A stretch of DNA of 64,000 bases. Source: Rhodocyclaceae bacterium. Its GTDB lineage: Bacteria; Pseudomonadota; Gammaproteobacteria; Burkholderiales; Rhodocyclaceae. Below the pieces are notes generated by a model. The model was given only the letters and a program-made list of their open reading frames with translations. It was not told the DNA's origin and did no database searches. The DNA lies in the NCBI GenBank assembly GCA_013791905.1, contig VMSX01000006.1, forward strand, positions 1 to 64,000. Reading direction: 5' to 3'. The translations under genes were made by a program, and so were the position numbers. Shown here in pieces: positions 47,471-61,426 of the stretch; positions within the stretch are counted from its first letter, which is position 1, and each line of letters starts with the position of its first letter.

Positions 47471-47534
47471 TTCGAGGTGCGTAATGCCTTCGATGCTTCG
47501 GTAGCTGGCCGAAAAAAACAAACAGCATTCATCC
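47471..47534 (+). ncRNA. YAGCTGG structured motif, copy 1
   Basis: Hairpin TCGAGG...CCTTCGA, then stem TTCGG/CCGAA closing TAGCTGG (47502-47508), then AACAAACAGCATTCA. GCTG of the loop can pair with the downstream CAGC, giving a pseudoknot. Confidence 0.6.
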
Positions 47535-47735: not shown

Positions 47736-47762
47736 CCGCCTGCGAATGCAGGACGGTTTTTT
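47736..47762 (+). terminator. Intrinsic terminator
   Basis: CCG-CCTGC pairs with GCAGG-A-CGG around GAAT and is followed by TTTTTT. It lies directly before leader 1. Confidence 0.75.
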
Positions 47763-47763
47763 A

Positions 47764-47829
47764 ACCCTGCGGGGGCTATCACGCCCCGCGATGGGCGTGG
47801 TGCCTCCGCTTTTTCATTCTGGAGGCATC
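47764..47829 (+). promoter_or_regulatory. Structured leader 1, Shine-Dalgarno sequestering
   Basis: Stem GCGGGG/CCCCGC (47769-47774, 47784-47789). Loop CACG can pair with CGTG (47796-47799). Anti-SD TGCCTCC (47801-47807) is exactly complementary to SD GGAGGCA (47821-47827). Confidence 0.65.
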
Positions 47830-48186
47830 ATGGAAAAAGTTCTTCTTGTCATGGCACTGCTGGGTTCTGTGTATCTGGCACTGCGCGGTCTGGTCAAGGT
47901 CGGAAGGTTGCTGATGGCGTTGTTGATGCCGAAGGCAATTCCCATCCTCCCCAGCGCAGTACGGAAGCTGGACACCACGGGGATGGCCGTGCCCAACGAC
48001 GAAGTTGAAGATTGGTCGAAGTACGAAGTTCCGGCGTTCATCCGGCGCGGCATTCCCATGCCCGTGCTGGAGCCGGCAAGCGCAAAACCTACAAAAACCC
48101 GCAAGCGCAGGAGTAAGGCAAAGTCCAACGGCAAAGCCGTCACGGACGTTACGCCCGAGTCTCCTGCCTTCGAGTTTGTGGCTTAA
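47830..48186 (+). CDS. Small membrane-anchored hypothetical protein
   Basis: A 118-residue protein from MEKVLLVMALLGSVYLALRG. One N-terminal hydrophobic helix is followed by a soluble part with DEVEDWSKYEVPAFIRRGIP and a very basic Lys/Arg stretch (TKTRKRRSKAKSNGK). Not recognised. It is the first coding gene of the plus-strand series and sits behind leader 1, whose SD fixes this start. Confidence 0.65.
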   Translation: MEKVLLVMALLGSVYLALRGLVKVGRLLMALLMPKAIPILPSAVRKLDTTGMAVPNDEVEDWSKYEVPAFIRRGIPMPVLEPASAKPTKTRKRRSKAKSNGKAVTDVTPESPAFEFVA

Positions 48187-48196
48187 ACAGTTTTTC

Positions 48197-48264
48197 AACC
48201 CCGCGGGGGCTATCACGCCCCCGCAAGGGGCGTGGTGCCTCCGCATTTTCTATCTGGAGGCATC
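48197..48264 (+). promoter_or_regulatory. Structured leader 2
   Basis: Perfect 8-base stem GCGGGGGC/GCCCCCGC (48203-48210, 48217-48224). Alternative perfect 8-base stem CACGCCCC/GGGGCGTG (48214-48221, 48227-48234). Anti-SD TGCCTCC (48236-48242) pairs SD GGAGGCA (48256-48262). Confidence 0.7.
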
Positions 48265-48342
48265 ATGTCGCTCGTCATCATCGCTTGCTGTATCACTGGT
48301 TGGATCATCAGCCGTCCCGTTGTCCGGGTGCTGGGCATCTAA
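48265..48342 (+). CDS. 25-residue hydrophobic microprotein
   Basis: MSLVIIACCITGWIISRPVV followed by RVLGI. Mostly one membrane helix with the C-terminal motif G-W-IISRP-V. It has its own well-formed leader and SD, which argues that it is translated. A paralogue follows at 48491. Function unknown; too short for homology by eye. Confidence 0.55.
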   Translation: MSLVIIACCITGWIISRPVVRVLGI

Positions 48343-48373
48343 CCGGCAGCAGCATTAATCGCCTGTGGGAATC

Positions 48374-48421
48374 CCCGCAGGCCTAATCGCTTTCGAGAGA
48401 GAGCCATTAGGCCTGCGGGGT
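48374..48421 (+). promoter_or_regulatory. Perfect 15-base inverted repeat between microprotein genes
   Basis: CCCCGCAGGCCTAAT and ATTAGGCCTGCGGGG enclose an 18-base loop. No T-run follows, so a processing or regulatory hairpin is more likely than a terminator. Confidence 0.55.
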
Positions 48422-48490
48422 TGCTACGGGCGCGAATCAAGCCTGGCAATTCCTGTGGGGTTTTCAATCAACCCGACTAGGAGCCTAGCC

Positions 48491-48574
48491 ATGATATTTG
48501 CGATCTTCACCATGTGCGTCATTTCAGGATTCATCATCAGTCGTCCGATCGTCAAGGCGTTCGGGTTACGGTGA
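48491..48574 (+). CDS. 27-residue hydrophobic microprotein, paralogue
   Basis: MIFAIFTMCVISGFIISRPI followed by VKAFGLR. Shares G-[WF]-IISRP-[VI]-V-[RK] with the 48265 product. An AGGAG site eight bases upstream fixes the ATG; the longer open frame upstream is not needed. Probably a single-span membrane peptide. Confidence 0.5.
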   Translation: MIFAIFTMCVISGFIISRPIVKAFGLR

Positions 48575-48593
48575 GAACCAGGGAACGGATGCC

Positions 48594-48752
48594 ATGAGCC
48601 TGTCGCATCTTTTTGAAAAGGTGGTCCAGGGTGACCGTAACGCATGTAGCTCGATCGATGCGGACACCATGGATCAATTGATCCAATGGGCGTGCGATCA
48701 CAAAGTTCTTTGGAAACTCCGAGACGCTTTGTGCAATCTCGCGCCAGTTTAA
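48594..48752 (+). CDS. Hypothetical 52-residue protein
   Basis: MSLSHLFEKVVQGDRNACSS, then a predicted helical rest (DTMDQLIQWACDHKVLWKLR). A GGGAACGG stretch lies upstream. No function recognised and no leader of the family in front; possibly translated by read-on from the microprotein gene. Confidence 0.4.
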   Translation: MSLSHLFEKVVQGDRNACSSIDADTMDQLIQWACDHKVLWKLRDALCNLAPV

Positions 48753-48765
48753 TGAGCATGTCAGA

Positions 48766-48790
48766 GTCCGGCGTCACGACGCTGGACTTT
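48766..48790 (+). terminator. Intrinsic terminator
   Basis: GTCC-G-GCGTC pairs with GACGC-T-GGAC, followed by TTT. It immediately precedes YAGCTGG motif 2, whose first hairpin uses the T-run. Confidence 0.6.
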
Positions 48791-48892
48791 CCTGAAAGCA
48801 TTCGAGAGTGCATTCAGGAAAGTTGAAATTGTCGCTCTGGTTATTCTGGAGCTTCATGGCGGTAGCTGGCCGCTCGAAATAAGCAGCATCCA
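48788..48892 (+). ncRNA. YAGCTGG structured motif, copy 2
   Basis: Hairpin 1 TTTCCTGAA/TTCAGGAAA (perfect, 9 bases), hairpin 2 GCTC...GAGC around GGTTATTC, hairpin 3 GCGG/CCGC (48859-48873) closing TAGCTGG, then AAATAAGCAGCATCCA. Confidence 0.65.
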
Positions 48893-48920
48893 AAGTGGTC
48901 AGAGATGGCCAACTCAGTTC

Positions 48921-48982
48921 CCTAACCGGGGCATCGCGCCCCTGCTGGGGGAGTGGTGCTCCATTACCTTGGAGGTACCACC
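48921..48982 (+). promoter_or_regulatory. Structured leader 3
   Basis: Stem GGGGC/GCCCC (48928-48942). Anti-SD arm GTGGT + CTCCA (48953-48963) pairs TGGAG + ACCAC (48970-48981) over the ribosome site. Confidence 0.55.
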
Positions 48983-49933
48983 ATGAAGATGGAAAACGTA
49001 GGTCTGTTGTCGATGTCTTCCGAGCAATATCACAGCAACAAGGAGGCTGTTGGACACTCAGGTCTGGTGAAGCTGATGCGTTCACCTGCGCATTATCAGG
49101 AGTACGTAGCCAATCCGCCTGAGCCAACGCCGGCCATGGCTTTCGGGACCGCGCTGCATATGGCGGTTCTGGAACCGGCTGAGTTCTCCTCGGTGTATTC
49201 AGTCTTCGATGAATCCAGGCTGGAAGGCACATTGCAATCCCTGGATGATTACAAGTCTGCGGCTGAAGCGCTGAGCATCAAGGTTGGGAAGATGAAGAAG
49301 GATGAGATCAAGGATGCCATCAAGGTAGCCGATGTCGATTCCCGTTTCATGTTCCGTGAAGATGCGATCGCCAGACTGTACGGCGGCAAGCAGATTCTGC
49401 AACCGACAGCAATGTTGTCCATTCAGTCGATTCAGGCCAGCATCTCCCGGCATACGGGTGCGGCGCGTTTGCTCTCCACAGGGCTGGCGGAAATGTCAGG
49501 CTTCTGGATGGATTCAGAAACCGGGATCCCGTGCAAATGTCGCCCTGACTGGCTGGTTATGGCAGGCGAAATGACCACCGGCATCGTGGATGTGAAGTCT
49601 TGCTGCGATGCCTCGGCAGAAGGTTTTGCCCGAGTTATTGCAACGATGGGCTACGACCTGCAGGCAGCCTATTATCAGGACGGGATAAAAGCCCTGACGG
49701 GCCGTACGCTTCCGTTCCATTTCATTGCTGTCGAGAAGGACGCCCCGTTTGCAACGGCGGTCTACAAGGCAAGTGACGAAATGATCGAGGTCGGCCGTGC
49801 GAAGTATCGCGGCGCACTTCAGCTGCTGAAGTGGTGTCGAGAAAACGACCAATGGCCGGCTTACCAACCGAGCGGTGTGATCGAAGAGATCGATCTGCCG
49901 CGCTGGGCAGCTAACTTCAATCTGGATGACTAG
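48983..49933 (+). CDS. RecE-like PD-(D/E)XK exonuclease
   Basis: A 316-residue protein. Early VGHSGLVKLMRSPAHYQEYV and MAFGTALHMAVLEPAEF, then the nuclease core CKCRPDWLV and GIVDVKSCCDAS, with the QAAYYQDGI glutamine/tyrosine motif, as in exodeoxyribonuclease VIII/YqaJ-like enzymes. It resects DNA ends for the RecT annealase encoded next. The start at 48983 follows GGAGG in leader 3. Confidence 0.85.
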   Translation: MKMENVGLLSMSSEQYHSNKEAVGHSGLVKLMRSPAHYQEYVANPPEPTPAMAFGTALHMAVLEPAEFSSVYSVFDESRLEGTLQSLDDYKSAAEALSIKVGKMKKDEIKDAIKVADVDSRFMFREDAIARLYGGKQILQPTAMLSIQSIQASISRHTGAARLLSTGLAEMSGFWMDSETGIPCKCRPDWLVMAGEMTTGIVDVKSCCDASAEGFARVIATMGYDLQAAYYQDGIKALTGRTLPFHFIAVEKDAPFATAVYKASDEMIEVGRAKYRGALQLLKWCRENDQWPAYQPSGVIEEIDLPRWAANFNLDD

Positions 49934-50195
49934 CATGTTGTCCAATCCGGTTGAGGCGCTTGCGGACTACCTCCATGAGGTTGGCCAGCCAATCCTTGAT
50001 CTGGCAGCCAAGACAAGACGGAAGGCCGAAGCCCTTAGACAGGCAGAAGCCGAAGTCGCTCGTTGTCGCCGCGAATTGAAGCAAAGTCGTCGGCTGCTCA
50101 TGGCCTGCGTCAAGCGTAACTATGTCATTTCGGAAATCGAGACGGCGGATGTTATGTGCAACAGAAACAACGGCAGCCCGTACTGGGCACCGTAA
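49926..50195 (+). CDS. Hypothetical coiled-coil protein between recE-like and recT
   Basis: An 89-residue protein whose start overlaps the nuclease stop by eight bases. Residues 25-65 form a heptad-like charged helix (AKTRRKAEALRQAEAEVARC). It may help the RecE/RecT pair, but nothing specific is recognised. ATG at 49935 is an alternative start. Confidence 0.6.
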   Translation: MTSMLSNPVEALADYLHEVGQPILDLAAKTRRKAEALRQAEAEVARCRRELKQSRRLLMACVKRNYVISEIETADVMCNRNNGSPYWAP

Positions 50196-50211
50196 TAATC
50201 AGAAGTTCTCA

Positions 50212-50283
50212 ACCCTCGGCGGGCCGCCATGCTCCCGCCAGGGACATGGTGCTCGCCTTTTACTTTCATGAAGGAGATCCACC
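50212..50283 (+). promoter_or_regulatory. Structured leader 4 (recT)
   Basis: Stem GGCGGG/CCCGCC (50218-50239). Loop CCATG (50227-50231) pairs CATGG (50245-50249), which overlaps the anti-SD GGTGCTC (50248-50254) facing GAG and CACC (50274-50283). The two pairings exclude each other. Confidence 0.65.
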
Positions 50284-51387
50284 ATGTCATTGCAAGCACT
50301 CAAGAACATCAATCGCAACGCTGCCGCAGACGCAAACGAGCAGCCCAAGAACTTCCCGGCCATGCTGGAGCAGTTCAAGGGGGAAATCGCCCGAGCCCTG
50401 CCCAAGCACATCAACCCGGATCGCATGGCGCGGATTGCGCTGACGGCGTTCCGTATGACGCCGAAGCTTGGCGAGTGCGACCCCCGCAGTGTTTTTGCGG
50501 CGGTCATACAGTCCTCGCAGATGGGTCTGGAGGTCGGGCTGATGGGAGAGGCGCACCTGGTGCCATTCGGTAACCAGTGTCAGCTGATTCCCGGTTACAC
50601 CGGACTCATGAAGCTGGCACGTCAATCGGGATTGGTTCAGGACATCTATGCCCATGAGGTTCGTGTGAATGACCAGTTCACCTTGAAACTCGGCATGGAG
50701 CGCAGCTTGGAGCACGACCCGATGACAGGGTTTGGCGGTTTCCCGGCATCCGATGAAGAGCGCGGCGACGTGGCAGGCTTTTATGCCGTCGCTGTGTTCA
50801 AGGACGGTAGCAGGACGTTCGTGGCGATGGGACGCAAGGAAGTCGAGAAGATCCGCGATAACTCGCGGGGCTATCAGGCAGCCAAGCGCTACAAGAAAGA
50901 GTCCGTCTGGGACTCGGACTTTACCGCGATGGGACTCAAGACGGCGATTCGTCGGCTCTGCAAGTTCCTGCCGAAATCTCCCGAACTGGCGGCTGCGCTT
51001 GCACTCGATGCAGCATCCGAGCAGGGTAAGGAACAGAACCTGAATCTGAACGATGTTATCGAGGGCAATTACGCCCCGGTGGTCGATGAGGAAACGGGCG
51101 AAATTACCGAACCCGACGTTGCGCAAGCCACCCAAGCCAAGGTTGCCGAAAAGCCGGCTGAGCCCGCCAAAGCCAAGACCGCGCCCGCTGCCAAAGCGGA
51201 TGCCGCCAAGGCCGAGGATGCGCCCAACCCGAAGCTGAAGGTGATCTTCGATCAGATGGCCGCCGCAAAGACCATTGAAGCGCTGGATGAGATCTACATC
51301 CGCGCCGAAGGTGAGCTTGACGGTACCGAACTGGAGGCACTGATGCGCGAATACCGCAAGTGCAAGAGCCAGGATGGCCTGTTCTGA
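50284..51387 (+). CDS. recT: RecT-family single-strand annealing protein
   Basis: A 367-residue protein with the RecT core (LTAFRMTPKLGECDPRSVFA, then AVIQSSQMGLEVGLMGEAHL, then LIPGYTGLMKLARQSG). An Ala/Lys-rich linker follows from about residue 280, then a conserved-looking C-terminal helix pair. It anneals homologous single strands with the upstream nuclease, supporting element recombination and repair after transfer. Confidence 0.94.
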   Translation: MSLQALKNINRNAAADANEQPKNFPAMLEQFKGEIARALPKHINPDRMARIALTAFRMTPKLGECDPRSVFAAVIQSSQMGLEVGLMGEAHLVPFGNQCQLIPGYTGLMKLARQSGLVQDIYAHEVRVNDQFTLKLGMERSLEHDPMTGFGGFPASDEERGDVAGFYAVAVFKDGSRTFVAMGRKEVEKIRDNSRGYQAAKRYKKESVWDSDFTAMGLKTAIRRLCKFLPKSPELAAALALDAASEQGKEQNLNLNDVIEGNYAPVVDEETGEITEPDVAQATQAKVAEKPAEPAKAKTAPAAKADAAKAEDAPNPKLKVIFDQMAAAKTIEALDEIYIRAEGELDGTELEALMREYRKCKSQDGLF

Positions 51388-51400
51388 TTCAACAACGAAC

Positions 51401-51532
51401 CCTACGCGCTTCGGCGCGTGGGTTTTCCCAGGGGTGTTCCATGAGTGCCCCTCGGCAAACCCAGATTCTTCCTCTCGGTTATCCGGAAGGCTGATAGTCG
51501 TAGCTGGCGACTCAAACCAAACAGCATTCAAG
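51401..51532 (+). ncRNA. Terminator plus YAGCTGG structured motif, copy 3
   Basis: ACGCGC-TTCG-GCGCGT with TTTT is a terminator behind recT. Then GGGTTT...AAACCC hairpin, TCGGTTATCCGG hairpin, and stem AGTCG/CGACT (51496-51512) closing TAGCTGG, followed by AAACCAAACAGCATTCA. The 132 bases recur at 56924-57055 with four differences. Confidence 0.7.
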
Positions 51533-51564
51533 ATCACCTGCTGGAAACGGTCGGTGCCCAATAA

Positions 51565-51713
51565 CCCTGCCGGGGAGACTCTTCCCGACAGGGAATCTCC
51601 TTTGCGCTGGGTTTTCCCAACGCCCCACTCAGGGCCTGCCATAGCGTCTAGCCCACTGGGCGTTACGGCAGGCCCTGTTTGGGGTTTTGCTTCAAATCGC
51701 AAAGGAGATCTAC
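51565..51713 (+). promoter_or_regulatory. Structured leader 5, long form
   Basis: Stem CCCTG-C-CGGG / CCCG-A-CAGGG (51565-51593). Loop GAGA pairs TCTC (51596-51599), which lies inside a 12-base anti-SD (51595-51606). That anti-SD is perfectly complementary to 51698-51709, including AAGGAGAT. A GGCCTGCC/GGCAGGCC hairpin sits between the arms. Confidence 0.7.
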
Positions 51714-51965
51714 ATGAAAATCATCGATGCAATTCCTGTATTGAATTCACTCCACAAGGTGAATCTCGTTGAAAGCGCCGGCCAGTATGCAATTATTTGC
51801 CAGGCACTCAACCGGTCTGCACTCATCGTTCAGCAAAACATGACGCGTGAAGCGGCCAAGTCCTATTGGTGGCGCATGTGCATGTCCCACTTCTACGGCG
51901 TAACACATAACCTTCATGATGCAGAGGTGATGGCTGATCGTCGTGTTGGTGAAACTATTCATTGA
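51714..51965 (+). CDS. Hypothetical protein
   Basis: An 83-residue protein from MKIIDAIPVLNSLHKVNLVE with aromatic-rich SYWWRMCMSHFYGV. Not recognised. The start is fixed by AAGGAGAT five bases upstream. It has the longest SD-sequestering leader in the element. Confidence 0.55.
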   Translation: MKIIDAIPVLNSLHKVNLVESAGQYAIICQALNRSALIVQQNMTREAAKSYWWRMCMSHFYGVTHNLHDAEVMADRRVGETIH

Positions 51966-51977
51966 ATGGGGATGACC

Positions 51978-52943: not shown

Positions 52944-52971
52944 GACGTGGCCTGGCGGCAATCATGTATCC

Positions 52972-52997
52972 CCCCCTCCTCAAGCGGGGAGGGTTTT
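52972..52997 (+). terminator. Intrinsic terminator behind the NrdJb-like gene
   Basis: CCCTCC pairs with GGAGGG around TCAAGCGG, followed by TTTT. Confidence 0.6.
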
Positions 52998-53094
52998 CCA
53001 GAACGCTGAGGAATCAGCGTTGCGGAAAGCTGAATTGTTCCCCCTGGCTACGCCATGAGGACATGAAGGTAGCTGGCCTTCCCAAACAAGCAGC
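52993..53094 (+). ncRNA. YAGCTGG structured motif, copy 4
   Basis: Hairpin 1 TTTTCC/GGAAA containing AACGC/GCGTT. Hairpin 2 CCCTGGCTACGCCATGAGG. Stem GAAGG/CCTTC (53065-53081) closes TAGCTGG, followed by AAACAAGCAGCATCAG. Confidence 0.65.
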
Positions 53095-53140
53095 ATCAGA
53101 TCGCAGCACGCAACACCGCTGCCTAAAAGAAGTTCTCAGC

Positions 53141-53203
53141 CCTGCGGGGGCCATCGTGTCCCCTCGGGTCATGGTGCCTTCGCTTTTCATTAGGAGATTC
53201 ACC
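53141..53203 (+). promoter_or_regulatory. Structured leader 6 (ssb)
   Basis: Stem GGGG/CCCC (53147-53163). Loop CCAT pairs ATGG (53171-53174), which overlaps GGTG (53173-53176), complementary to CACC (53200-53203) next to AGGAG. Confidence 0.55.
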
Positions 53204-53611
53204 ATGCTTAACAAAGTTCAACTGATCGGTTTCCTCGGAGCTGATCCGGATGTGCGTTTCACCCAGGAGCAGGAAGCGATCGCACGCGTCCGCATCGCCA
53301 CCAGTGAGACCTGGAAAAAAGACGGCAAGCGTCAGGAGAGGACGGAGTGGCATAACGTCGTGTTCTTCGGCAAGCTGGCTGAAATCGTCGGCGATCACCT
53401 CAAGAAAGGATCCCTGGTGTACGTCGAAGGTCGTTTGCAGACGCGCTCTTGGGATAAAGAAGGCGAAACCCGCTATTCGACCGAGATCGTCGCGGAGAGC
53501 ATGAAGATGCTACCCAATGGCAGCGGCAAGTCGAAAGACGATCCTGCCAGCGATGAGTCGCCTGCAAGAGGCAAAAGGCCGCCGGCCAAGCATGACGACG
53601 GTCCTTTCTAG
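53204..53611 (+). CDS. ssb: Single-stranded DNA-binding protein
   Basis: A 135-residue SSB with an N-terminal OB fold (MLNKVQLIGFLGADPDVRFT, ERTEWHNVVFFGKLAEIVG, KGSLVYVEGRLQTRSW) and an acidic disordered tail ending DDGPF, the partner-binding tip. It is an element-encoded SSB protecting incoming single-stranded DNA. It starts at the ATG behind leader 6; the longer upstream frame is not coding. Confidence 0.95.
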   Translation: MLNKVQLIGFLGADPDVRFTQEQEAIARVRIATSETWKKDGKRQERTEWHNVVFFGKLAEIVGDHLKKGSLVYVEGRLQTRSWDKEGETRYSTEIVAESMKMLPNGSGKSKDDPASDESPARGKRPPAKHDDGPF

Positions 53612-53647
53612 CCTGCGTTAGTCGCGCGTACATCAGCAACACACAAA

Positions 53648-53784
53648 GTCCCTGCCGGGGAGAACATCCCGGCAGGGATTTCTCCATGCCGGTGGGAACT
53701 TCATCGGCCCGCGACGGGGCCTACCAAAGCGCCTCGTTTGGGGTGCTTTGGCAGGCCCGGTCCGGGTAACACATGGAGGCAATC
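53648..53784 (+). promoter_or_regulatory. Structured leader 7, long form (primase)
   Basis: Perfect 10-base stem CCCTGCCGGG/CCCGGCAGGG (53650-53677). Loop GAGAA pairs TTCTC (53680-53684), overlapping anti-SD CTCCATG (53682-53688), which is complementary to CATGGAG (53772-53778). A GGCCTACC-type hairpin like that of leader 5 lies between. Confidence 0.7.
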
Positions 53785-54879
53785 ATGGAAGTAGGGGAAG
53801 TGAAAATCGCGGCACAAGGCATGTGGGACTCGATTCTTCGGTCTCTGGCGCCTCAACTGAGAGACGCTCTCGAGCGTCCAGGGCATCACGTACCTTGTCC
53901 GGTTCATGGTGGCAAGGATGGATACCGGACGTTTCCGGACGTTGCCAAAACAGGGGGTGGCGTCTGCAATACATGCGGAGTACATGCAGATGGCTTTGCT
54001 ACGCTGATGTGGGCATCCGGCATGAACTTCAAGGAAGCACTCGGCGAGGTTGTGGGCTACTTGCAGCTTGGGACAACCCGGCCGTTACCAGCACGGGTCG
54101 TGAAGCGCGAGAAGACGTCGGATGAAAGGGAAGACGAGAAACTTCGTCAGTCTCTGAATCGCGTCTGGAATGAATCCATCCAGATCTGCGAGCGTGATGC
54201 AGAGCCAGCCAGGCTGTATCTGGCGCGGCGCGGCATTGCACTCAGTCCGCCAGAAGCGCTTCGATTCCATCCGTCACTGCCATACTACGAGGGGAAAGAG
54301 AAGTGTGGTGAGTATCCAGCCATGATTTCAATGGTGTCCGGTACTCAGGGGAACGCAGTGACTATCCACCGCATCTATCTGACCCGGGATGGCATCAAGG
54401 CACCTGTCAAGTCGCCAAAGAAGCTCATGGCATATCCCGGTGATCGACAGATCATAGGTGGTGCCATACGGTTGTCACCGGCAAGCGGGAAGTCATCCAC
54501 CTTGCTGGTTGCCGAAGGCGTCGAAACATCCCTGGCTGTCATTGAGGGAACGATGGGATCCAATTTCCCCGTCTGGAGCACAGTCAATGCGCTTCTGATG
54601 GAGAACTTGACTCCCCCCGACTGGGCAACCCGAGTCATCATCTTCGGTGACAAAGATCGTCCTACCGAGCAACACCCCAAGGGACATGGACAGGAAGCGG
54701 CAAAGAAGCTTGTCCAGCGTCTCTGGCAACGAGGTATCCAGGCATCGGCAATTATCCCGGCAGGAGAAATCTCGCCTGGCGAAAAGTCGCTGGACTGGCT
54801 CGATATCCTTAAAACCAAAGGCAGCGCAGGTTTTCCGGTCATGAACATGATCGAGCGCGCCATGCGGAATGCAGCGTAG
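53785..54879 (+). CDS. Zn-ribbon/Toprim primase
   Basis: A 364-residue primase. The zinc ribbon uses C38, H41, C61 and C64 (VPCPVHGG, GVCNTCG). A helical middle part follows, and a Toprim domain with LLVAEGVETSLAV and VIIFGDKDR acidic residues. It resembles phage P4/plasmid-type primases. It would prime the complementary strand after conjugal entry. The ATG at 53785 follows GGAGG; the upstream in-frame ATG overlaps that SD. Confidence 0.9.
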   Translation: MEVGEVKIAAQGMWDSILRSLAPQLRDALERPGHHVPCPVHGGKDGYRTFPDVAKTGGGVCNTCGVHADGFATLMWASGMNFKEALGEVVGYLQLGTTRPLPARVVKREKTSDEREDEKLRQSLNRVWNESIQICERDAEPARLYLARRGIALSPPEALRFHPSLPYYEGKEKCGEYPAMISMVSGTQGNAVTIHRIYLTRDGIKAPVKSPKKLMAYPGDRQIIGGAIRLSPASGKSSTLLVAEGVETSLAVIEGTMGSNFPVWSTVNALLMENLTPPDWATRVIIFGDKDRPTEQHPKGHGQEAAKKLVQRLWQRGIQASAIIPAGEISPGEKSLDWLDILKTKGSAGFPVMNMIERAMRNAA

Positions 54880-54888
54880 GGAGTCGCC

Positions 54889-55134
54889 ATGTACGGAGTC
54901 ATCAACTTTTCGGTAATCGACACAACACCTGGTGCCTGTTCAGCATTTGGCCCACCGCCCAATTGGGATGGAAGCTACGTTGAGTTCATGCGCGAGCGCT
55001 GGAGGAATGATCCCGGCGTTCGTCAGCATGTGTTTGTCGTCGGACGAATGCTGTATCGCGATGAAAAAATTTCTTTCATCGGTCCCTACGCCTCCGAGGC
55101 CAGGGCGATCGTTGAGGGAGCCTATCAACACTAA
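54889..55134 (+). CDS. Hypothetical protein
   Basis: An 81-residue protein (MYGVINFSVIDTTPGACSAF, then WDGSYVEFMRERWRNDPGVR). Not recognised. It begins nine bases after the primase stop, without a family leader, so it is read as translationally linked to it. Confidence 0.5.
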   Translation: MYGVINFSVIDTTPGACSAFGPPPNWDGSYVEFMRERWRNDPGVRQHVFVVGRMLYRDEKISFIGPYASEARAIVEGAYQH

Positions 55135-55190
55135 CCCCAGCGGGGACAACATCCTGCTGGGGTGTTGCTCCGCTTCACGAGGAGCTATTT
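55135..55190 (+). promoter_or_regulatory. Structured leader 8
   Basis: Stem CCCCAGC/GCTGGGG (55135-55162). Loop CAACA (55147-55151) pairs TGTTG (55163-55167). Anti-SD GCTCC (55167-55171) pairs SD GGAGC (55181-55185). Confidence 0.7.
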
Positions 55191-55613
55191 ATGGAAGCAG
55201 TACTTTCTATCGACGCGGCGGAGCGCGCAACGATTCTCGCTGCGCTACGCTACTACCAGCAACAGGGGCAGGGTGACCCATCGAATCGCAGTGATGAAAT
55301 TCATGACATTGCAACCGATGGCGACAACCAGATCTCGCTCGACGAAGAAGGAATTGACGTGCTGTGCGAGAAAGTCAATTTCGGTGAAACACCACTCATG
55401 CTCGATCAGGTGACTCAAGTGGTGGTATTTGCGAGCGAAGGAGTGACACGTTCCGTTGCTGTTCGCGATCTTCCTGAAGGTGGAGTGCCGTGTGTCGTGG
55501 TGGACTACGACGACATGCGAGAGCATCCCCATCAAGAGGTAGGCGACTTTGAGCGCGAACGGATTGGTTGTACGCGTGAGGAGTTCGATCTGGCAGCAAG
55601 CTACATTTGGTAG
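55191..55613 (+). CDS. Hypothetical acidic protein
   Basis: A 140-residue protein (MEAVLSIDAAERATILAALR) with many Asp/Glu and a C-terminal ERIGCTREEFDLAASYIW. Not recognised; the high acidic content recalls DNA-mimic or anti-restriction proteins but no family signature is visible. It has its own leader 8. Confidence 0.55.
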   Translation: MEAVLSIDAAERATILAALRYYQQQGQGDPSNRSDEIHDIATDGDNQISLDEEGIDVLCEKVNFGETPLMLDQVTQVVVFASEGVTRSVAVRDLPEGGVPCVVVDYDDMREHPHQEVGDFERERIGCTREEFDLAASYIW

Positions 55614-55634
55614 CTCATTAAGCATTTCTAAAAC

Positions 55635-55700
55635 TACCCGCTCGGGAGCTCTACTCCCGGCAGGGATAGTGCCTCCGGCGGATCTTCTTCGGAGGTCTCT
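55635..55700 (+). promoter_or_regulatory. Structured leader 9 (ardC-like)
   Basis: Stem CGGGAG/CTCCCG (55643-55659). Loop CTA pairs TAG (55667-55669). Anti-SD CCTCCG pairs SD CGGAGG (55690-55695). Confidence 0.65.
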
Positions 55701-56531
55701 ATGTCATCAAAAGACAAACCAGATTGGCAGAGTCTGCTCAAACAGGCACTGACAGTACCGGGCACGCTTTCAAAGGCGTACTCGGTGTTTCACAACTACT
55801 CGCTGGGCAATCAGCTTCTGGCTTCCTTTGAACTTGCCAGTCGCGGTTTGCCTCTGTCCCCCATCGCGTCATTCATGCGATGGAAGGAACTGGGGCGTAG
55901 CGTCAAGAAGGGCGAAAAGGCAATTCCCTTGGTGATGCCAGTAACCGTTAAGAAGAGGGCAGTAGATGCCGATGCCGACGAAGAGTCGGTAGATGGTGTC
56001 CGCACTATCTTCATCCTGAAGCGCAACTGGTTCTCACTCGACCAAACCGAGGGTGAAGCATTCAGTCCCGAAGTGATCATGCCAGAGTGGGACAAGACGA
56101 AAGCCCTGGTCGCATTGGACATCAAGGAGGTTCGCTTTGAGATGGCTGACGGAAATTGCCAGGGCTATGCCAAGCTGGGTGTCCGCGAGGTTGCCGTCAA
56201 TCCGGTAGCGGCAATGCCATGGAAAACGCTGTTCCATGAAATTGCTCATCATCTGCTCGGTCATACGGCCACCGGTGATGCGACTGGCACGATGGCTGAT
56301 GGCCCCTCGATGCCGAAATGCATCAAGGAAGCCGAAGCCGAAGCTACCGCGTATCTGTGCTGCGCGACCCTCGGGTTGCCAGGCATGGAGGAAAGCCGTG
56401 GCTACATTCAGAGCTGGCTGGACGGAGAGGAATTTCCGGAAAAGTCATCGCGACGGGTGTTTGCCGCTGCGGACAAGATCCTGAAGGCTGGAACCATCGG
56501 GCTACAGGGGAAGGAGGCCAACCATGGCTAA
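55701..56531 (+). CDS. ArdC-like antirestriction protein with zincin domain
   Basis: A 276-residue protein. The N-terminal ArdC-type ssDNA-binding domain (NYSLGNQLLASFELASRG, then FMRWKELGRSVKKGEKAIPL) is followed by a metallopeptidase-like domain with HEIAHH at 179-184 and a downstream Glu-rich helix (KEAEAEATAYLCC). ArdC proteins protect incoming single-stranded element DNA from host restriction. The host's own Mrr nuclease is encoded in this window. Confidence 0.88.
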   Translation: MSSKDKPDWQSLLKQALTVPGTLSKAYSVFHNYSLGNQLLASFELASRGLPLSPIASFMRWKELGRSVKKGEKAIPLVMPVTVKKRAVDADADEESVDGVRTIFILKRNWFSLDQTEGEAFSPEVIMPEWDKTKALVALDIKEVRFEMADGNCQGYAKLGVREVAVNPVAAMPWKTLFHEIAHHLLGHTATGDATGTMADGPSMPKCIKEAEAEATAYLCCATLGLPGMEESRGYIQSWLDGEEFPEKSSRRVFAAADKILKAGTIGLQGKEANHG

Positions 56532-56904
56532 CCATTGCTTCGCAAGGGTTCGGTCGCATAGCCAACGGGAGATCATTGATCGATTGCATGGCTTGCGCCG
56601 CAAGATCTACCTTTGCAGCGAACAGGGTTTTCAGAGTCGCGTCGAGTTTCTGTGCCTAGCCTTCGGGTATGGATTGGGAGCTGACATCAGGGACTACCAG
56701 CTGTGGGATGAAGGCTGGGAGGAACTGGGCGAGCGGCAATGGGATACCTGTTTCGAGATGGGGGATGCCGAACAGGTCATCAGCGAAGTTGTGCAACGTG
56801 CGCGAGCGCAGGGATTTATTGATGCTGTGCGCGAGTACTGCAACGTGCCTGGCGCTTTCGAGCGATGGGAAAACTATGCTGATCGGCAAGGTGCCCTTTT
56901 TTGA
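56524..56904 (+). CDS. Hypothetical protein
   Basis: A 126-residue protein (MANHCFARVRSHSQREIIDR; YQLWDEGWEELGERQWD). It overlaps the ArdC-like gene by eight bases, so it is coupled to it. Not recognised. Confidence 0.55.
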   Translation: MANHCFARVRSHSQREIIDRLHGLRRKIYLCSEQGFQSRVEFLCLAFGYGLGADIRDYQLWDEGWEELGERQWDTCFEMGDAEQVISEVVQRARAQGFIDAVREYCNVPGAFERWENYADRQGALF

Positions 56905-56923
56905 TGGGATGTATCAAGTACAA

Positions 56924-57055
56924 CCTACGCGCTTCGGCGCGTGGGTTTTCCCAGGGGTGCTCCATGAGTGCCCCTCGGCAAACCCAGATTCTTCCTCCCG
57001 GTTATCCGGAAGGCTGATAGTCGTAGCTGGCGACTCAAATCAAGCAGCATTCAAG
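56924..57055 (+). ncRNA. Terminator plus YAGCTGG structured motif, copy 5
   Basis: Near-identical to 51401-51532 over 132 bases, four single-base differences. The stem AGTCG/CGACT, the TAGCTGG loop and the downstream CAGC are unchanged; one difference turns CAAACAGC into CAAGCAGC, a variant also seen in copies 2 and 4. Confidence 0.7.
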
Positions 57056-57117
57056 CGGCAGGCACCATGTCTGCCACACACTCAGACCCATGCGGGATAT
57101 CACTATTCCGCTTCCGG

Positions 57118-57189
57118 GGTATTACCCAAAGTCGGGGGCTTGTTTCCCCGACGGGGATGCTCGTCCTCATTTTCATTTCTGGAGGACAG
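57118..57189 (+). promoter_or_regulatory. Structured leader 10
   Basis: Stem GTCGGGG/CCCCGAC (57131-57152). Anti-SD GTCCTC (57163-57168) pairs GAGGAC (57182-57187) across the SD. No clear pseudoknot. Confidence 0.6.
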
Positions 57190-57402
57190 ATGCACGACAG
57201 AACTTATCAAGCAGTAGCAACAGTCCATGATCCACTTACCGACAAGGGCATGAAAGAAGAACCTGTTCATGATCGCGTCAATCTGGATCGCATCAAAGCC
57301 CTGAAGCTGGCGAAGCTTTGGTCAGAACAAGGGTACTGGAGCTCGATTTACAACCAACTGACAGCGGAGTGTGTCGAGTGCTATGCCCCCCAACGGGGGT
57401 GA
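57190..57402 (+). CDS. Hypothetical protein
   Basis: A 70-residue soluble protein (MHDRTYQAVATVHDPLTDKG, then DRIKALKLAKLWSEQGYWSS). Not recognised. The start is defined by GGAGGACAG in leader 10. Confidence 0.5.
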   Translation: MHDRTYQAVATVHDPLTDKGMKEEPVHDRVNLDRIKALKLAKLWSEQGYWSSIYNQLTAECVECYAPQRG

Positions 57403-57430
57403 GCTAAACCACATACTGAAGTCAGCAAAT

Positions 57431-57501
57431 CATTTCCCACACGGGGCGTTCACGGCCCCATGTGGGCCATGGTGCCCCGCCTTTCCAAGAGGAGTTGCAC
57501 C
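57431..57501 (+). promoter_or_regulatory. Structured leader 11
   Basis: Stem CCCACA-C-GGGGC / GCCCC-A-TGTGGG (57436-57466). Loop CAC pairs GTG (57472-57474), inside anti-SD GGTGC (57471-57475), complementary to GCACC (57497-57501). Confidence 0.65.
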
Positions 57502-58452
57502 ATGTCACAAATCAAGCAGCAATTGGAGTCTGGCAAGCTGATACACGTTGGCCAGCGGATTCATTGCATTCTCAATGGCGGTACCGATGGCGTTGTCACG
57601 GCCATTCATGGCGTACAAGATCCGGGATCGTGTCAAACGATCGCAAGTGGGATCGGAGTGACAGGCGGGGGTGCCCATCTCGATATTGTCTGGGGTGACG
57701 GTACTGAATCTCGCGGCATTCCGGAAAGCCTGGCCAGAACTTCTGTGCAGTGGAAGGTCTATGCGGAAGTGGCCTCGATGTCGGAGGTAGTCGAACTCAA
57801 GGCGAATCTTGCCATTGAGAAGGCGCGCCGCCAGGCAGAAGAGGACGCCAGGCAGGTTACCTTCAACAAGGAGTGCGATCGGCTTCGTCAGGCTTATCCG
57901 CAATTAAACACGCGCGAGACCGAGTCCAGTGATTTCAAGCGCTGCCTTGTGAATGTCCGCATCATCCTGAAGGAGTCGTTCTCAGGAATCAAGTTCAGCG
58001 TTCGTCAGGATTCGTTTGGCTCGCTGACCGTGCGATGGACTGATGGCCCGACTGAAATACAGGTCGGGAGCCTGGTGAATGGCTTCAAAGGCGGCAGCTT
58101 TGACGGGATGGAGGATATTTACCGTCATGAGCGCACGCCATGGAACACTCTTTTTGGTGAAGCGAAGTATCTCTCGCTCCATCGAACAGAGTCTGAAGCG
58201 ATCGTTCAGAAGGCAATCGACACCCTGTGGGATGTTCTGCCCAACGTGCGAGAGCTCGTAAAGCCGACTCCAGCATCGGTCTTCTCTGTCAGATCCGAGC
58301 GGGTGCCTGGCCTTGATGTCAATGTAGCCGAGCTAATTCGCACTCTGTGTTCTCACTACGATGCAATTCAGAAGCGATTTGAGCGAAACGGTACAAAGTA
58401 CGGTCGCTTGACCTTCGTGGTTGATTACGCGTGTAAAGCGCAAGGCAAGTAA
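57502..58452 (+). CDS. LPD29-domain protein
   Basis: A 316-residue protein. The N-terminal half has a KOW-like turn (VGQRIHCILNGGTDGVVTAI) and a charged helix. The middle shows the LPD29 pattern (SGIKFSVRQDSFGSLTVRWT, GFKGGSFDGMEDIYRH). Such domains occur in large polyvalent proteins of phages and conjugative elements and are thought to go with transferred DNA. Function unknown. Confidence 0.65.
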   Translation: MSQIKQQLESGKLIHVGQRIHCILNGGTDGVVTAIHGVQDPGSCQTIASGIGVTGGGAHLDIVWGDGTESRGIPESLARTSVQWKVYAEVASMSEVVELKANLAIEKARRQAEEDARQVTFNKECDRLRQAYPQLNTRETESSDFKRCLVNVRIILKESFSGIKFSVRQDSFGSLTVRWTDGPTEIQVGSLVNGFKGGSFDGMEDIYRHERTPWNTLFGEAKYLSLHRTESEAIVQKAIDTLWDVLPNVRELVKPTPASVFSVRSERVPGLDVNVAELIRTLCSHYDAIQKRFERNGTKYGRLTFVVDYACKAQGK

Positions 58453-58458
58453 CAGCAA

Positions 58459-58523
58459 TCCCTTACCGGGGGGGCATCTTCCCCGATAGGGGGCGGGCCT
58501 CCCTTTTCTTCATGGAGGTACTG
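58459..58523 (+). promoter_or_regulatory. Structured leader 12
   Basis: Stem CCCT...CGGGG / CCCCG...AGGG (58460-58491). Anti-SD CCTCC (58498-58502) pairs SD GGAGG (58514-58518). Confidence 0.6.
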
Positions 58524-58676
58524 ATGCGTGCATGTCAAATGTTGTTTGGAACAAGGGAGAGAGACGGGCTGGCCTATATCGAGCCTTTGCCGTCTTTTCA
58601 TCCGCTGTACAAGATCCGGAAGAAGATTGTTGCGATCGGCAGCTATATCGGTCGCATCTTTCGCATGGGCGAGTGA
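58524..58676 (+). CDS. 50-residue hypothetical microprotein
   Basis: MRACQMLFGTRERDGLAYIE, a short linker, then a basic segment YKIRKKIVAIGSYIGRIFRM. It has leader 12 with a good SD six bases before the ATG, and a terminator behind it, so it forms a complete small gene. Function unknown. Confidence 0.5.
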   Translation: MRACQMLFGTRERDGLAYIEPLPSFHPLYKIRKKIVAIGSYIGRIFRMGE

Positions 58677-58708
58677 TGGAATGCATTCGACCATTGCATG
58701 ACAGGAAT

Positions 58709-58736
58709 CCCGTGCCCTCGTGGCACGGGGTTTTCC
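58709..58736 (+). terminator. Intrinsic terminator
   Basis: CCCGTGCC (58709-58716) pairs with GGCACGGG (58722-58729), then TTTT. Its T-run begins hairpin 1 of YAGCTGG motif 6. Confidence 0.75.
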
Positions 58737-58843
58737 TGAACCGTCTGGAAACAAACAGGCCTTTCAGGAAAATCGGAATTCAATCGCCCGGCTACGCCAG
58801 GTGATCGATGCTCCCAGCTGGGGAGTCAAAACAAACAGCAAAC
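58731..58843 (+). ncRNA. YAGCTGG structured motif, copy 6
   Basis: Hairpin 1 TTTTCCTGAA/TTCAGGAAAA (perfect, 10 bases). Hairpin 2 around CCGGCTACGCC. Stem CTCC/GGAG (58811-58825) closes CAGCTGG, followed by AAAACAAACAGCA. Confidence 0.65.
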
Positions 58844-58875
58844 AACTTGCGTCGGGGTGACCCGTCGTTAATTCA

Positions 58876-58939
58876 ACCCTTGCGGGCACGCCATTCCCGC
58901 AAGGGCTTGGTGCGTCCGTGTTTCCAAAGGAGACGCATA
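58876..58939 (+). promoter_or_regulatory. Structured leader 13
   Basis: Perfect 10-base stem CCCTTGCGGG/CCCGCAAGGG (58877-58905). Loop CGCCA pairs TGGTG (58908-58912), overlapping anti-SD TGCGTC (58911-58916), complementary to GACGCA (58932-58937) at the SD. Confidence 0.72.
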
Positions 58940-60658
58940 ATGGATGAGCATCAGTTCTACCCAACGCCCGAAAAGCTTGCACGAAAGGCATGGGCAACCT
59001 TCAAGAACAAGGATTTCTCTCGTGTTCTTGAACCTTCGGCCGGTACCGGCGATTTGGCCAAGGTACATCCGGGGCGCTACGACTCCTGGCGGCGAATCAA
59101 GATCGACTGCTGCGAGATCGACATCTCGAAGCATCCGAATCTGAAAGAGGAGGGCTTTACCATCGTCGGACTTGACTTCATGCAGTTCTCAAGTGCGGCG
59201 GCGTATAGCCATATCCTCATGAATCCACCGTTTGCTCAGGGTGCGCATCATGTCCTGAAGGCCTGGGACATCCTGTTTGACGGTGAAGTGGTGGCGATCA
59301 TCAATGCGGAAACGATCCGGAATCCGTATTCGAAGGAACGCCAAATGCTGACCCGGATCATCGAGCAGCATGGTTCCGTCGAGTTCATCGAGGAGGCATT
59401 CATGGATCCCGATACGAAACGGAAAACAAAGGTCGAAATTGCGCTGGTGCACCTCGTCAAGGAAGCCAACTACGGCAAGGATATCGTCGGCAGCATCATG
59501 GAAGACCTGAAACGGGATTCCATGTCCGACGCCAAACTGGCTGAGGGCTATCGGGAGATGAATGAGCTGGTGCTACCCAACTCGTTTATCGAAAATGCCG
59601 TGCTTACCTTCAATGCAGCGGTTCGCGCCATGCGAGAGTCCGTTCATGCCGAGGCGCGCGCACAGCACTACTCTGGCCTGATCGGGAAAACCTTGACTGA
59701 GATGAACGGCAACATCCCTGCGAAGGAAGCCGCATCAACCTTGGACTTTGTTCGAACCGAACTTGGCAATCGATACGACAAGCTGAAGGATCAGGCGTGG
59801 AGCAATATCCTGCGCTCAACCCAAGTGCTGTCAAAACTGTCGTCTGCAGCACAGAAGCGCCTGGAAGCCGAATTCGAGAATATCAAACACCTCGAATTCA
59901 GCACCGGCAACATCCAGGGATTCCTGCTGGGCCTCGTCGAAAGTCAGGGCGAGATCCAGCTGGGCATGGTGTGCGATGTCTTCGATCAGATAACCCGCTA
60001 CTACTCGGACAACACCGTGTATTACCGTGGCTGGAAGTCGAATGACAAGCATCGTACCTGTGGCATCAGGATCAAAGGCACACGCTTCATATTGCCTGGC
60101 CACCGCGCTGATTCATGGCGCAATGAGCCATCCTGGGACTCGCTTCAATTGCTGCGCGACTTCGACAAGGTATTTGCGCTGCTGGATGGAAAGCAGGAAC
60201 CTGACTTCGGTCTGGCCCATCTTTTCGAGACAAGTTTCAATATGCTGCGCACGTCAAAGCGGATGAGTACGGATTATTTCGATGTCCGCTATTTCAAGGG
60301 CATGGGGACGATCCATTTCTATCCGCGAAACGTGAAACTGATTGACCGTCTCAACCGCATGGTCGGCCGCCATCGTCAATGGCTGCCACCCGAGGGGGAG
60401 TCGGTAACGGAGGGATTCTGGTTGCAATATGACCAGGCAGAGCAGCTGGATAAAGAGGTTCGGGCAGAAGTCGCCAAGCAACACCTGTCCGGCTGGCAAG
60501 ATCCTTTCTGGCGGCTCAGTCGAGGCCGGGAGGATGGCGAAGGCAGCGGTGCTGAAGCAAGCATCGATGCCGCACTTGCCTCCGTGCAGGACCGTCATGG
60601 AATCAGCATCGGCGTTCTCGAAGCAAAACAACAGATGCCGCTACTTCTGGCGGCGTGA
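58940..60658 (+). CDS. DUF4942-type SAM-dependent DNA methyltransferase
   Basis: A 572-residue protein. Residues 31-38 EPSAGTGD are the SAM-binding motif and 95-98 NPPF the catalytic motif of N6-adenine/N4-cytosine methyltransferases. The C-terminal ~250 residues (TVYYRGWKSNDKHRTCGIRI, YFDVRYFKGMGTIHFYPRNV) are the DUF4942 part. No restriction partner is adjacent, so self-protection against host restriction is likely. Start fixed by AAAGGAGAC. Confidence 0.87.
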   Translation: MDEHQFYPTPEKLARKAWATFKNKDFSRVLEPSAGTGDLAKVHPGRYDSWRRIKIDCCEIDISKHPNLKEEGFTIVGLDFMQFSSAAAYSHILMNPPFAQGAHHVLKAWDILFDGEVVAIINAETIRNPYSKERQMLTRIIEQHGSVEFIEEAFMDPDTKRKTKVEIALVHLVKEANYGKDIVGSIMEDLKRDSMSDAKLAEGYREMNELVLPNSFIENAVLTFNAAVRAMRESVHAEARAQHYSGLIGKTLTEMNGNIPAKEAASTLDFVRTELGNRYDKLKDQAWSNILRSTQVLSKLSSAAQKRLEAEFENIKHLEFSTGNIQGFLLGLVESQGEIQLGMVCDVFDQITRYYSDNTVYYRGWKSNDKHRTCGIRIKGTRFILPGHRADSWRNEPSWDSLQLLRDFDKVFALLDGKQEPDFGLAHLFETSFNMLRTSKRMSTDYFDVRYFKGMGTIHFYPRNVKLIDRLNRMVGRHRQWLPPEGESVTEGFWLQYDQAEQLDKEVRAEVAKQHLSGWQDPFWRLSRGREDGEGSGAEASIDAALASVQDRHGISIGVLEAKQQMPLLLAA

Positions 60659-60667
60659 CTTTTCGTT

Positions 60668-60729
60668 CCCATTACGGGGGTGCTTATCCCCGTATGGGGA
60701 GGGTGCCCCCATTTCATTTTGGAGGCACC
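60668..60729 (+). promoter_or_regulatory. Structured leader 14 (radC)
   Basis: Stem TACGGGG/CCCCGTA (60673-60694), with alternative TCCCC/GGGGA. Anti-SD GGTGCC (60702-60707) pairs GGCACC (60724-60729) beside GGAGG. Confidence 0.62.
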
Positions 60730-61323
60730 ATGAAGCAGAAATCAAACGCAGAGCTACTGGCATTGCTGGTAGGCAACGATACGGCAAAGGCGCTCGCATC
60801 CAGGCCACTTGTCGAGATACTTGGGTTTGCCAAGCCTCGCCAGCAACATTTGTGCGAAGAAATGACTCCCTACGTTGTTCATCCAGCATTAGCCGCCGCC
60901 AAGGAACTGTTCAAGCGCTGTTTCAGTGAGCAACTCTCAACTGGCGATCTAAATCTATCCTCACCAGCAGCGGTTCAGTCGTTTCTATGTGCCGAAATCG
61001 GGCACTTGGAGCATGAGTCATTCTGGTGCCTGTGGATGGATGCGCAGAATCGCCTTATCAAGGCTGAAGAGCTTTTTCGCGGGACCACCACTCAAACCAG
61101 TGTCTATCCGCGAGAAGTTGTGAAGCAGGCGATCTCCGTAAACGCGACTGGCGTGATCTTCGCGCATAACCATCCGTCTGGTTTTCCAGAGCCATCAAGA
61201 GCCGACCAAACGCTGACAAGTGCGCTGAAGTCAGCTCTTGCGCTGGTCGACGTGAGAACGCTCGATCATTTCGTCATCGCCGGCAATAAAGCACTCTCAT
61301 TTGCCGAAAGGGGGCTGCTGTAA
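60730..61323 (+). CDS. radC: RadC-family JAB-domain protein
   Basis: A 197-residue protein of the element-borne RadC/YicR family with the metal motif HNHPSG at 146-151 followed by PEPSRAD. The N-terminal helix-hairpin-helix part is short. Molecular role unresolved, often found with ssb and antirestriction genes on mobile elements. Confidence 0.9.
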   Translation: MKQKSNAELLALLVGNDTAKALASRPLVEILGFAKPRQQHLCEEMTPYVVHPALAAAKELFKRCFSEQLSTGDLNLSSPAAVQSFLCAEIGHLEHESFWCLWMDAQNRLIKAEELFRGTTTQTSVYPREVVKQAISVNATGVIFAHNHPSGFPEPSRADQTLTSALKSALALVDVRTLDHFVIAGNKALSFAERGLL

Positions 61324-61368
61324 CTGCTGTATCGATTGATGGAAAGACATTGTGATTTAGTCATTCAA

Positions 61369-61426
61369 CCCATCGGGGGTCTTGCCCCCAGTGGGCGGGG
61401 CCCCCGCCTATCTTAGGAGGCTCCCA
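61369..61426 (+). promoter_or_regulatory. Structured leader 15
   Basis: Stem CCCA-GGGGG / CCCCC-TGGG (61369-61395). GGGGCC (61397-61402) pairs GGC-T-CCC (61419-61425) next to AGGAGG. Confidence 0.55.

Follow-up and report, generated by a model that had tools for sequence, protein, structure and literature searches.

We analyzed the first 64,000 positions of contig VMSX01000006.1 (contig C22) from a Rhodocyclaceae bacterium with a 3.64 Mb genome; this whole stretch is referred to here as the window. Between 47.7 and 62.8 kb it holds a gene module in which many start codons are preceded by short structured leaders, and these leaders are the subject of this report. Module products recognized with Pfam include a DUF3799 protein, RecT, SSB, a Toprim primase, an ArdC-like protein, a DUF4942 protein, RadC and a C5 DNA methylase. 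The opposite strand encodes a UvrD-like helicase and a protein with a sub-threshold AcaB match, and relatives of similar gene content are mobH-carrying plasmids.

An earlier note, made from the DNA letters alone, had described fifteen such leaders with a common layout: a GC-rich hairpin, a strand able to pair with its loop, and an anti-Shine-Dalgarno (anti-SD) segment that pairs with the Shine-Dalgarno (SD) sequence of the gene it precedes. This layout is present on inspection, and all four SD/anti-SD examples quoted were located. Examination of the start sites, together with folding of single leaders, revealed a hairpin and, after it, a strand that is complementary to the SD and in many cases to the AUG too (CAUGGUG...CACCAUG). 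From 5' to 3', the strands are the 5' arm, the loop, the 3' arm, D (the anti-SD) and S (the SD and start codon). We designate the pairing of 5' arm with 3' arm P1, that of D with S P2, and that of 5' arm plus loop with D P0.

Two covariance models were built, R1 from 13 leaders (six from the window and seven from relatives) and R2 from 102 leaders (alignment A4). Seven window leaders were included in R2, whereas those beginning at 61366, 48918, 58457, 55132, 55634 and 57122 lay outside its training. Searched against the window, R2 returns 13 leaders rather than fifteen, all on the + strand between 47762 and 61427 and all with E ≤ 0.013:

Leader 1, 47762–47832, + strand: gene start at 47830; P1, D (anti-SD), and SD with AUG; R2 61.4 bits; fold z −4.0
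Leader 2, 48196–48267, + strand: small open reading frame (ORF) start at 48265; R2 65.8 bits; fold z −7.0; stepwise folding predicted as P1, P0, P1 + P2
Leader 3, 48918–48985, + strand: start of the DUF3799 (PDDEXK-like, Pfam) gene at 48983; R2 27.2 bits, outside R1 and R2 training; P0 GGGGCAUCGC/GUGGUGCUCC
Leader 4, 50210–50286, + strand: recT start at 50284 (Pfam RecT); R2 50.7 bits; fold z −4.1
Leader 5, 53137–53206, + strand: ssb start at 53204 (Pfam SSB); R2 55.2 bits; fold z −2.3
Leader 6, 55132–55193, + strand: ORF start at 55191; R2 25.4 bits, outside training; loop pairing CAACA/UGUUG; anti-SD pairing GCUCC/GGAGC; P0 helix of only 5 bp
Leader 7, 55634–55703, + strand: ArdC-like gene start at 55701; R2 23.7 bits, outside training; anti-SD pairing GCCUCCGG/UCGGAGGU; P0 helix of only 4 bp
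Leader 8, 57122–57192, + strand: ORF start at 57190; R2 20.0 bits at 57122–57187, outside training; anti-SD pairing GUCCUC/GAGGAC
Leader 9, 57433–57504, + strand: LPD30/LPD29 protein gene (Pfam) start at 57502; R2 45.9 bits; fold z −4.7
Leader 10, 58457–58526, + strand: ORF start at 58524; R2 25.8 bits, outside training; weakest fold, z −1.2
Leader 11, 58874–58942, + strand: DUF4942 gene (Pfam) start at 58940; R2 52.9 bits; fold z −4.7
Leader 12, 60666–60732, + strand: radC start at 60730 (Pfam RadC); R2 46.4 bits; P0 GGGGGUGCUU/GGGUGCCCCC
Leader 13, 61366–61429, + strand: C5 DNA methylase gene (Pfam DNA_methylase), GTG start at 61427; R2 33.5 bits at 61366–61427, outside training; P0 GGGGGUCUUG/CGGGGCCCCC

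The 3' end of every R2 leader falls at the start codon or 3 nt before it (13/13). Outside 47.7–61.5 kb, R2 gave a single window match up to E = 10, at 35262 (E = 4.7), and it gave none at the coupled genes starting at 49935, 51978, 54889 and 56524. Weak minus-strand matches occur at leader sites (for example, 53604–53680, E = 0.039), which we take as mirror images of the hairpins. Folding of the leaders is more stable than that of dinucleotide shuffles (z ≤ −2.0) in 12 of the 13, the exception being 58461–58526. For the anti-SD pairing taken alone, the 13 leaders have a median of −14.3 kcal/mol, against −11.2 kcal/mol for 20 other, hand-picked window starts (p = 0.0013). Another type of hairpin precedes the starts at 48491, 51714 and 53785. 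Upstream of the primase gene (53711–53785) and of the 51714 ORF (51620–51714), this is a different, longer hairpin of the CCAAAGCGCCTC...GGGGTGCTTTGG type, and by eye similar longer hairpins precede the primase in three other loci (L042, L043 and L058).

Compensatory variation among the leaders had been proposed, together with a covariance model and covariation check that would examine it, and both bear the proposal out. On A4, an alignment fitted to the model, both sides changed in 17 of the 21 P1 and P2 pairs; the covariation score was 0.274, compared with at most 0.088 when the pairing was slid, and none of 500 shuffles scored as high. A second test, in which the pairing energy of each strand with its own partner is compared with that obtained using partners swapped in from other leaders, likewise shows pairing kept while sequence differs. 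It also extends to P0, a pairing absent from every covariance model used.

The swap test was applied to several sets. R1 yielded 179 matches at E ≤ 1 in 22 loci, and 150 of these make up alignment A3. A set of 118 leaders was drawn from 150 aligned rows after removing duplicates and any row that does not finish with ATG, GTG or TTG; 54 leaders (of 55 rows) lie outside the models; and 38 leaders below 75% identity were taken from the 102 A4 rows. For the 118 leaders, swapped within their sources, z was −10.1 for P0, −5.4 for P2, −11.9 for inner P1, −5.3 for outer P1 and −5.5 for the loop with D, while a terminator pairing (outer GGGG with the anti-SD strand) gave +0.7 and controls gave +1.9, +0.8 and −1.6. 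Among 57 leaders below 75% identity, the values were −12.6 (P0), −8.4 (P2) and −12.7 (P1), and the terminator pairing again showed no signal. The 54 leaders outside the models gave −12.3 (P0), −11.8 (P2), −13.9 (P1) and −6.5 (loop with D), with the terminator pairing at −0.8 and this pairing and the controls together spanning −0.8 to −1.5. In the 13 window leaders, z was −4.1 for P2 (0/20000 swaps as low), −4.6 for P1, −3.0 for the loop with D (31/20000) and −2.4 for P0 (147/20000). P0 thus exceeds the loop pairing in the larger sets (−12.3 versus −6.5), and the order is reversed in the window (−2.4 versus −3.0). An automatic hairpin parser, which kept 48 of 84 gene starts, gave z of −6.1 for P2 and −3.3 for the loop; with the same parser, nine Delftia leaders alone gave −1.5 and −1.6.

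The strand said in the earlier note to pair usually with the loop does so over at least 4 bp in 10 of the 13 window leaders. The alternative fold is larger than the loop pseudoknot envisaged there, being the hairpin P0. It has at least 7 contiguous base pairs in 84 of the 118 leaders and 36 of the 54, with many and varied sequences; two from locus L060 are GGGUAAACCAU/AUGGUUUACCC and CAGGGAAAACAA/UUGUUUUCCCUG. Because its signal depends on each leader having its own partner, the 5' arm and loop mimic the SD-AUG region, with which they are in competition for D. P0 and P2 are mutually exclusive in most leaders, since both use at least 3 of the same D nucleotides in 101 of the 118 (8 share none); the exclusivity that the note had assigned to pseudoknot and SD block holds for these two helices. 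The mRNA strand is clearly favored by P0, with a mean of −14.6 kcal/mol against −10.6 kcal/mol on the other strand, and P2 (−14.3 versus −14.0) and P1 (−11.5 versus −10.8) hardly discriminate. A count of wobble cells for strand gave 125 G-T and 106 A-C.

These pairings suggest two states. In the closed state, P1 and P2 would hide the SD and usually also the AUG. In the open state, the 5' arm and loop would pair with D to form P0 and leave S free. Truncated and full-length folds were compared for 109 of the 118 leaders. When the RNA is cut after D, P0 is predicted to beat P1 in 87 of them, and in the full-length leader P2 has a predicted probability above 0.5 in 90, as does P0 in 11. Stepwise minimum-energy folding passes from P1 to P0 to P1 + P2 in all seven of the 13 window leaders that were run. 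The barrier from the nascent to the final fold, a direct-path estimate, has a median of 11.8 kcal/mol (n = 118) and ranges from 10.6 to 18.5 kcal/mol in the nine of these leaders that come from the window. After synthesis of D and before that of S, P0 is thus the fold predicted to be more stable, and P1 + P2 are predicted to win when the leader is complete. Because P0 is predicted to be favored before S exists, nascent RNA probably exposes the start site, which would later be closed unless a bound ribosome keeps the SD and AUG accessible. Translation of the module genes would then keep pace with new transcription.

On the basis of these comparisons and folding models, the leaders probably belong to a single family of cis-acting mRNA elements and function as a bistable translational switch. 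The shared two-state switch proposed in the earlier note stands insofar as two exclusive, covarying folds precede many genes; of the other ideas that it entertained, identity with STAXI RNA is not supported and a role in single-stranded DNA is disfavored, as set out below. The competing pairings are backed by covariation, and the trigger is what we infer. That the trigger is a timer set by the age of the nascent RNA is a proposal the modeled folding order makes plausible, and we advance it tentatively, at somewhat less than an even chance.

Several observations weigh against this interpretation. Taken alone, the anti-SD helix reaches a fraction of 0.05 or less in only two of the 13 window leaders when the whole upstream stretch is shuffled, and in only four when shuffling is limited to the part before −22. 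We dropped anti-SD pairing by itself as proof, most single window leaders being unexceptional against shuffles, and it is therefore conservation and covariation that carry the case. P0 is modest when the window is taken by itself (z only −2.4), its helix reaching at least 7 bp in seven leaders and 4–6 bp in six. The apical part of P0 (3' arm with outer GGGG) is complementary without covariation (z 0.0 to +0.3), and one control, the 5' arm with S, is not flat, at z −2.5 (21/5000) in the 57-leader set and −0.6 to −1.9 elsewhere. Leaders of the larger sets were found by models containing P1 and P2, so statistics for these helices lean toward the model. The swap tests remove kinship only partly; the strictest thinning leaves 13 and 7 leaders, with P0 z of −4.8 and −3.8. 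As to the folding path, P0 fails to beat P1 in 22 of the 109 truncated leaders, the barriers are of the direct-path kind, and the finished RNA favors the closed state, by a median of 6.0 kcal/mol in the window (n = 13), 9.6 kcal/mol in the 38-leader set and 10.3 kcal/mol in the 54-leader set. For this last reason, the open state must be kinetic or be held by something.

A second repeated, RNA-like element, which we call B, accompanies many of the leaders. It is a pseudoknot hairpin, its UAGCUGG loop pairing with a downstream CAGC across an A-rich spacer. The stem of 4–5 bp covaries, and the AGCUG loop core and downstream CAGC are invariant in 17 seeds, most of which came from a scan requiring these pairings. 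With a model of B (R3), the own genome gave at least 11 matches among the 150 of 2018 candidates scored, six in C22, five in contig C19 and none elsewhere; the window copies are:

B, 47495–47531, + strand: 231 nt before leader 1; R3 48.4 bits
B, 48856–48892, + strand: 26 nt before leader 3; R3 52.0 bits
B, 51494–51530, + strand: upstream of the 51714 gene, a start without an R2 leader; R3 53.6 bits
B, 53063–53099, + strand: 38 nt before the ssb leader; R3 49.4 bits
B, 57017–57053, + strand: 69 nt before leader 8; R3 52.7 bits
B, 58808–58844, + strand: 30 nt before leader 11; R3 45.4 bits

Across the window, L042 and L097, 13 of 18 B copies sit 14–69 nt before a leader. The IncC plasmid pNDM102337 has five copies, and weaker matches, as in L048–L052, have altered loop and downstream letters. 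Within 75 nt upstream of many copies we noted by eye a long hairpin of the GCTTTCC...GGAAAGC type, then GAATT or GATTT, and then a small hairpin with a TTAT- or TAAT-like loop; taken together with B, these blocks give the impression of a structured RNA some 110 nt long. The sequence GGTAGCTGGCCGC at 63050–63070, near the module end, is a possible degenerate copy. The idea that B serves a NusG paralogue as an ops-like site was rejected: the own genome holds a single NusG match, on contig C17.

In another genome, G559, the place upstream of the leader is taken by radC RNA (RF01754). With E ≤ 0.0009, R2 matches follow it at a distance of 16–26 nt in L063 and L064, and in L066 the match overlaps its end; at the fourth copy, in L065, there is only a weak R2 match (E = 0.057). 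Three of four copies in this genome thus adjoin a leader, and this adjacency may explain the gene associations of radC RNA. The two occupy the same kind of place but differ in sequence and structure. RF01754 had no match in the window, and its best score in the own genome, on contig C28, was 18.4 bits against a cut-off of 40.

The position of B bears on a different trigger for the same two folds, namely a trans-acting factor, either protein or RNA and encoded by the element or the host, that binds P1 or P0, with upstream B or radC RNA perhaps serving as the binding or sensing part. One architecture common to many leaders per element is in keeping with such a factor, to which all leaders would respond together; the spacing of B and the like placement of radC RNA in one genome fit it, and a closed state stable at equilibrium may need something to open it. 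The stem sequences vary, however, and the contacts that could be common to the leaders are mainly CCC/GGG and GGUG; B is within 70 nt of only four of the 13 window leaders; and a search confined to NusG identified no candidate. We regard a trans-acting trigger, the chief competitor of the timer, as possible, if rather doubtful.

Constitutive damping would dispense with switching: P2 would lower and insulate translation for each cistron, and P0 would be a by-product of G-rich and C-rich runs. The unexceptional anti-SD helix of most single window leaders and the dominance of P1 + P2 in full-length RNA agree with this, but P0 is gene-specific beyond base composition (z −12.3 for own versus swapped partners, with control pairings near zero), which makes damping improbable. 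A transcription attenuator, in which P0 and a U-run form an intrinsic terminator with P1 as antiterminator, is suggested by the length and GC content of the P0 hairpin and by runs of at least five U within 9 nt after it in 15 of 38 and 11 of 54 leaders. Such a run occurs in only one of the 13 window leaders, so some leaders carry it but not most; the outer GGGG has no gene-specific signal with the anti-SD strand (z +0.7 and −0.8), and the read-through state would still have its SD blocked, so that we consider attenuation quite improbable. Action in single-stranded DNA during transfer, as a promoter or protein site, is very improbable. The earlier note had brought up single-stranded DNA, PMC2864571 proposes such a role for STAXI, and it would suit the several DNA-processing genes of the module; the elements, however, stop at start codons, base-pair with the SD and AUG, and form P0 much better on the mRNA strand.

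The bistable switch was compared with known RNAs. An Rfam 15 scan of the window, L042, L043, L058 and L094–L097 placed no family at its gathering score on any leader; the best sub-threshold match was sbcD at leader 2, with 28 of 40 bits. For STAXI (RF01728), judged without a positive-control instance, there was no match at gathering in the window and none up to E = 10 in 47–62 kb, and a published STAXI primer had no exact occurrence in viral_contigs; the identity with STAXI that had been raised for these leaders is not borne out. According to PMC2864571, STAXI comprises tandem pseudoknot repeats with frequent UUCG loops in Enterobacteriales, near ssb and antirestriction genes. The leaders resemble it in having pseudoknot structures near such genes and differ in that there is one per gene; TTCG occurs in one of the 13 window loops, within the longer loop CGTTCACGG of leader 9 rather than as a UUCG tetraloop.

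The nearest established case is the leader of the MS2 maturation gene, where a transient fold permits translation to start before a stable closing fold forms (PMC6733600, citing van Meerten 2001). Both have an open transient fold and a later closing fold, the timing here, open first and closed last, being only predicted; MS2, however, is a phage RNA with one cloverleaf, whereas these are short three-strand leaders before many genes. In hok/Sok-type and aapA toxin mRNAs, metastable and final folds also govern SD access (PMC6733600), but their transient folds keep the nascent RNA closed, unlike the open nascent fold predicted here. The comparison extends to riboswitches as follows. Translational riboswitch platforms use a strand logic of anti-anti-SD, anti-SD and SD. 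The leaders share this competing-strand logic and, like other bistable leaders, have two mutually exclusive covarying folds, one of which blocks the SD; they differ in that no aptamer is seen within the leader and that there are many copies per element. A translational switch with competing strands is a known kind. We found no description of a repeated, element-wide family of them lacking an aptamer in the leader in the literature searched, although most subscription papers lay outside that search and absence from print is not established.

Searching other elements, as the earlier note had advised, showed relatives in plasmids of several classes. In the own genome, R1 gave at least 20 matches at E ≤ 1, ten each in C22 and C19, and all such matches among the 150 of 1358 first-look candidates scored fall within the window module or the C19 module. 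The latter is a second, like element on the minus strand at about 34600–49850 of C19, where R1 finds ten leaders (E ≤ 1) and R3 five copies of B. R2 matched 25 of 369 sampled genomes and 18 of 398, the own genome being counted in both; three of the 18 lie outside the class of the window, and loci not used in building R2 are among those matched. R997 (annotated eexS), which we take to be an SXT/R391-family element, has seven + strand matches (E ≤ 0.0014), including bet, exo and radC, and similar matches were seen in a Vibrio plasmid. On the IncC plasmid pNDM102337 there are 13 + strand matches (E ≤ 0.02), those of ssb, bet and exo among them. Matches also occur in an Azospira plasmid and in a Geoalkalibacter plasmid (Thermodesulfobacteriota), and a single weak match is present in each of two Pseudomonadaceae plasmids (L061, E = 0.0007; L062, E = 0.064).

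Elsewhere in the window, eight of the ten ORFs scanned at 12.6–44.2 kb are metabolic or transport genes, the others encoding an ABC-type ATPase and a DUF2326 protein. Within the module, a 132-nt repeat, 97% identical, lies at 51401–51532 and 56924–57055; both copies end in B, and the pair is a recent duplication.

The three-strand RNA switch is represented by more than 100 naturally occurring, differing copies, a useful data set for testing co-transcriptional folding, and the previously unexplained radC RNA is now placed next to a leader with a readable output. A broader reading, which we consider speculative and on present evidence unlikely, is that a large class of conjugative plasmids and integrative and conjugative elements, including IncC and SXT/R391 types, runs its DNA-processing genes through element-wide, self-timing leaders, each mimicking its own SD-AUG, with cistrons open only on newly made RNA and the response of the whole set governed by an RNA domain that they share upstream (B or radC RNA). 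The same leader family precedes ssb, bet and exo in the IncC plasmid and bet, exo and radC in R997. Such elements are known to spread drug resistance, and common translational control of these genes could therefore affect the establishment of the elements.

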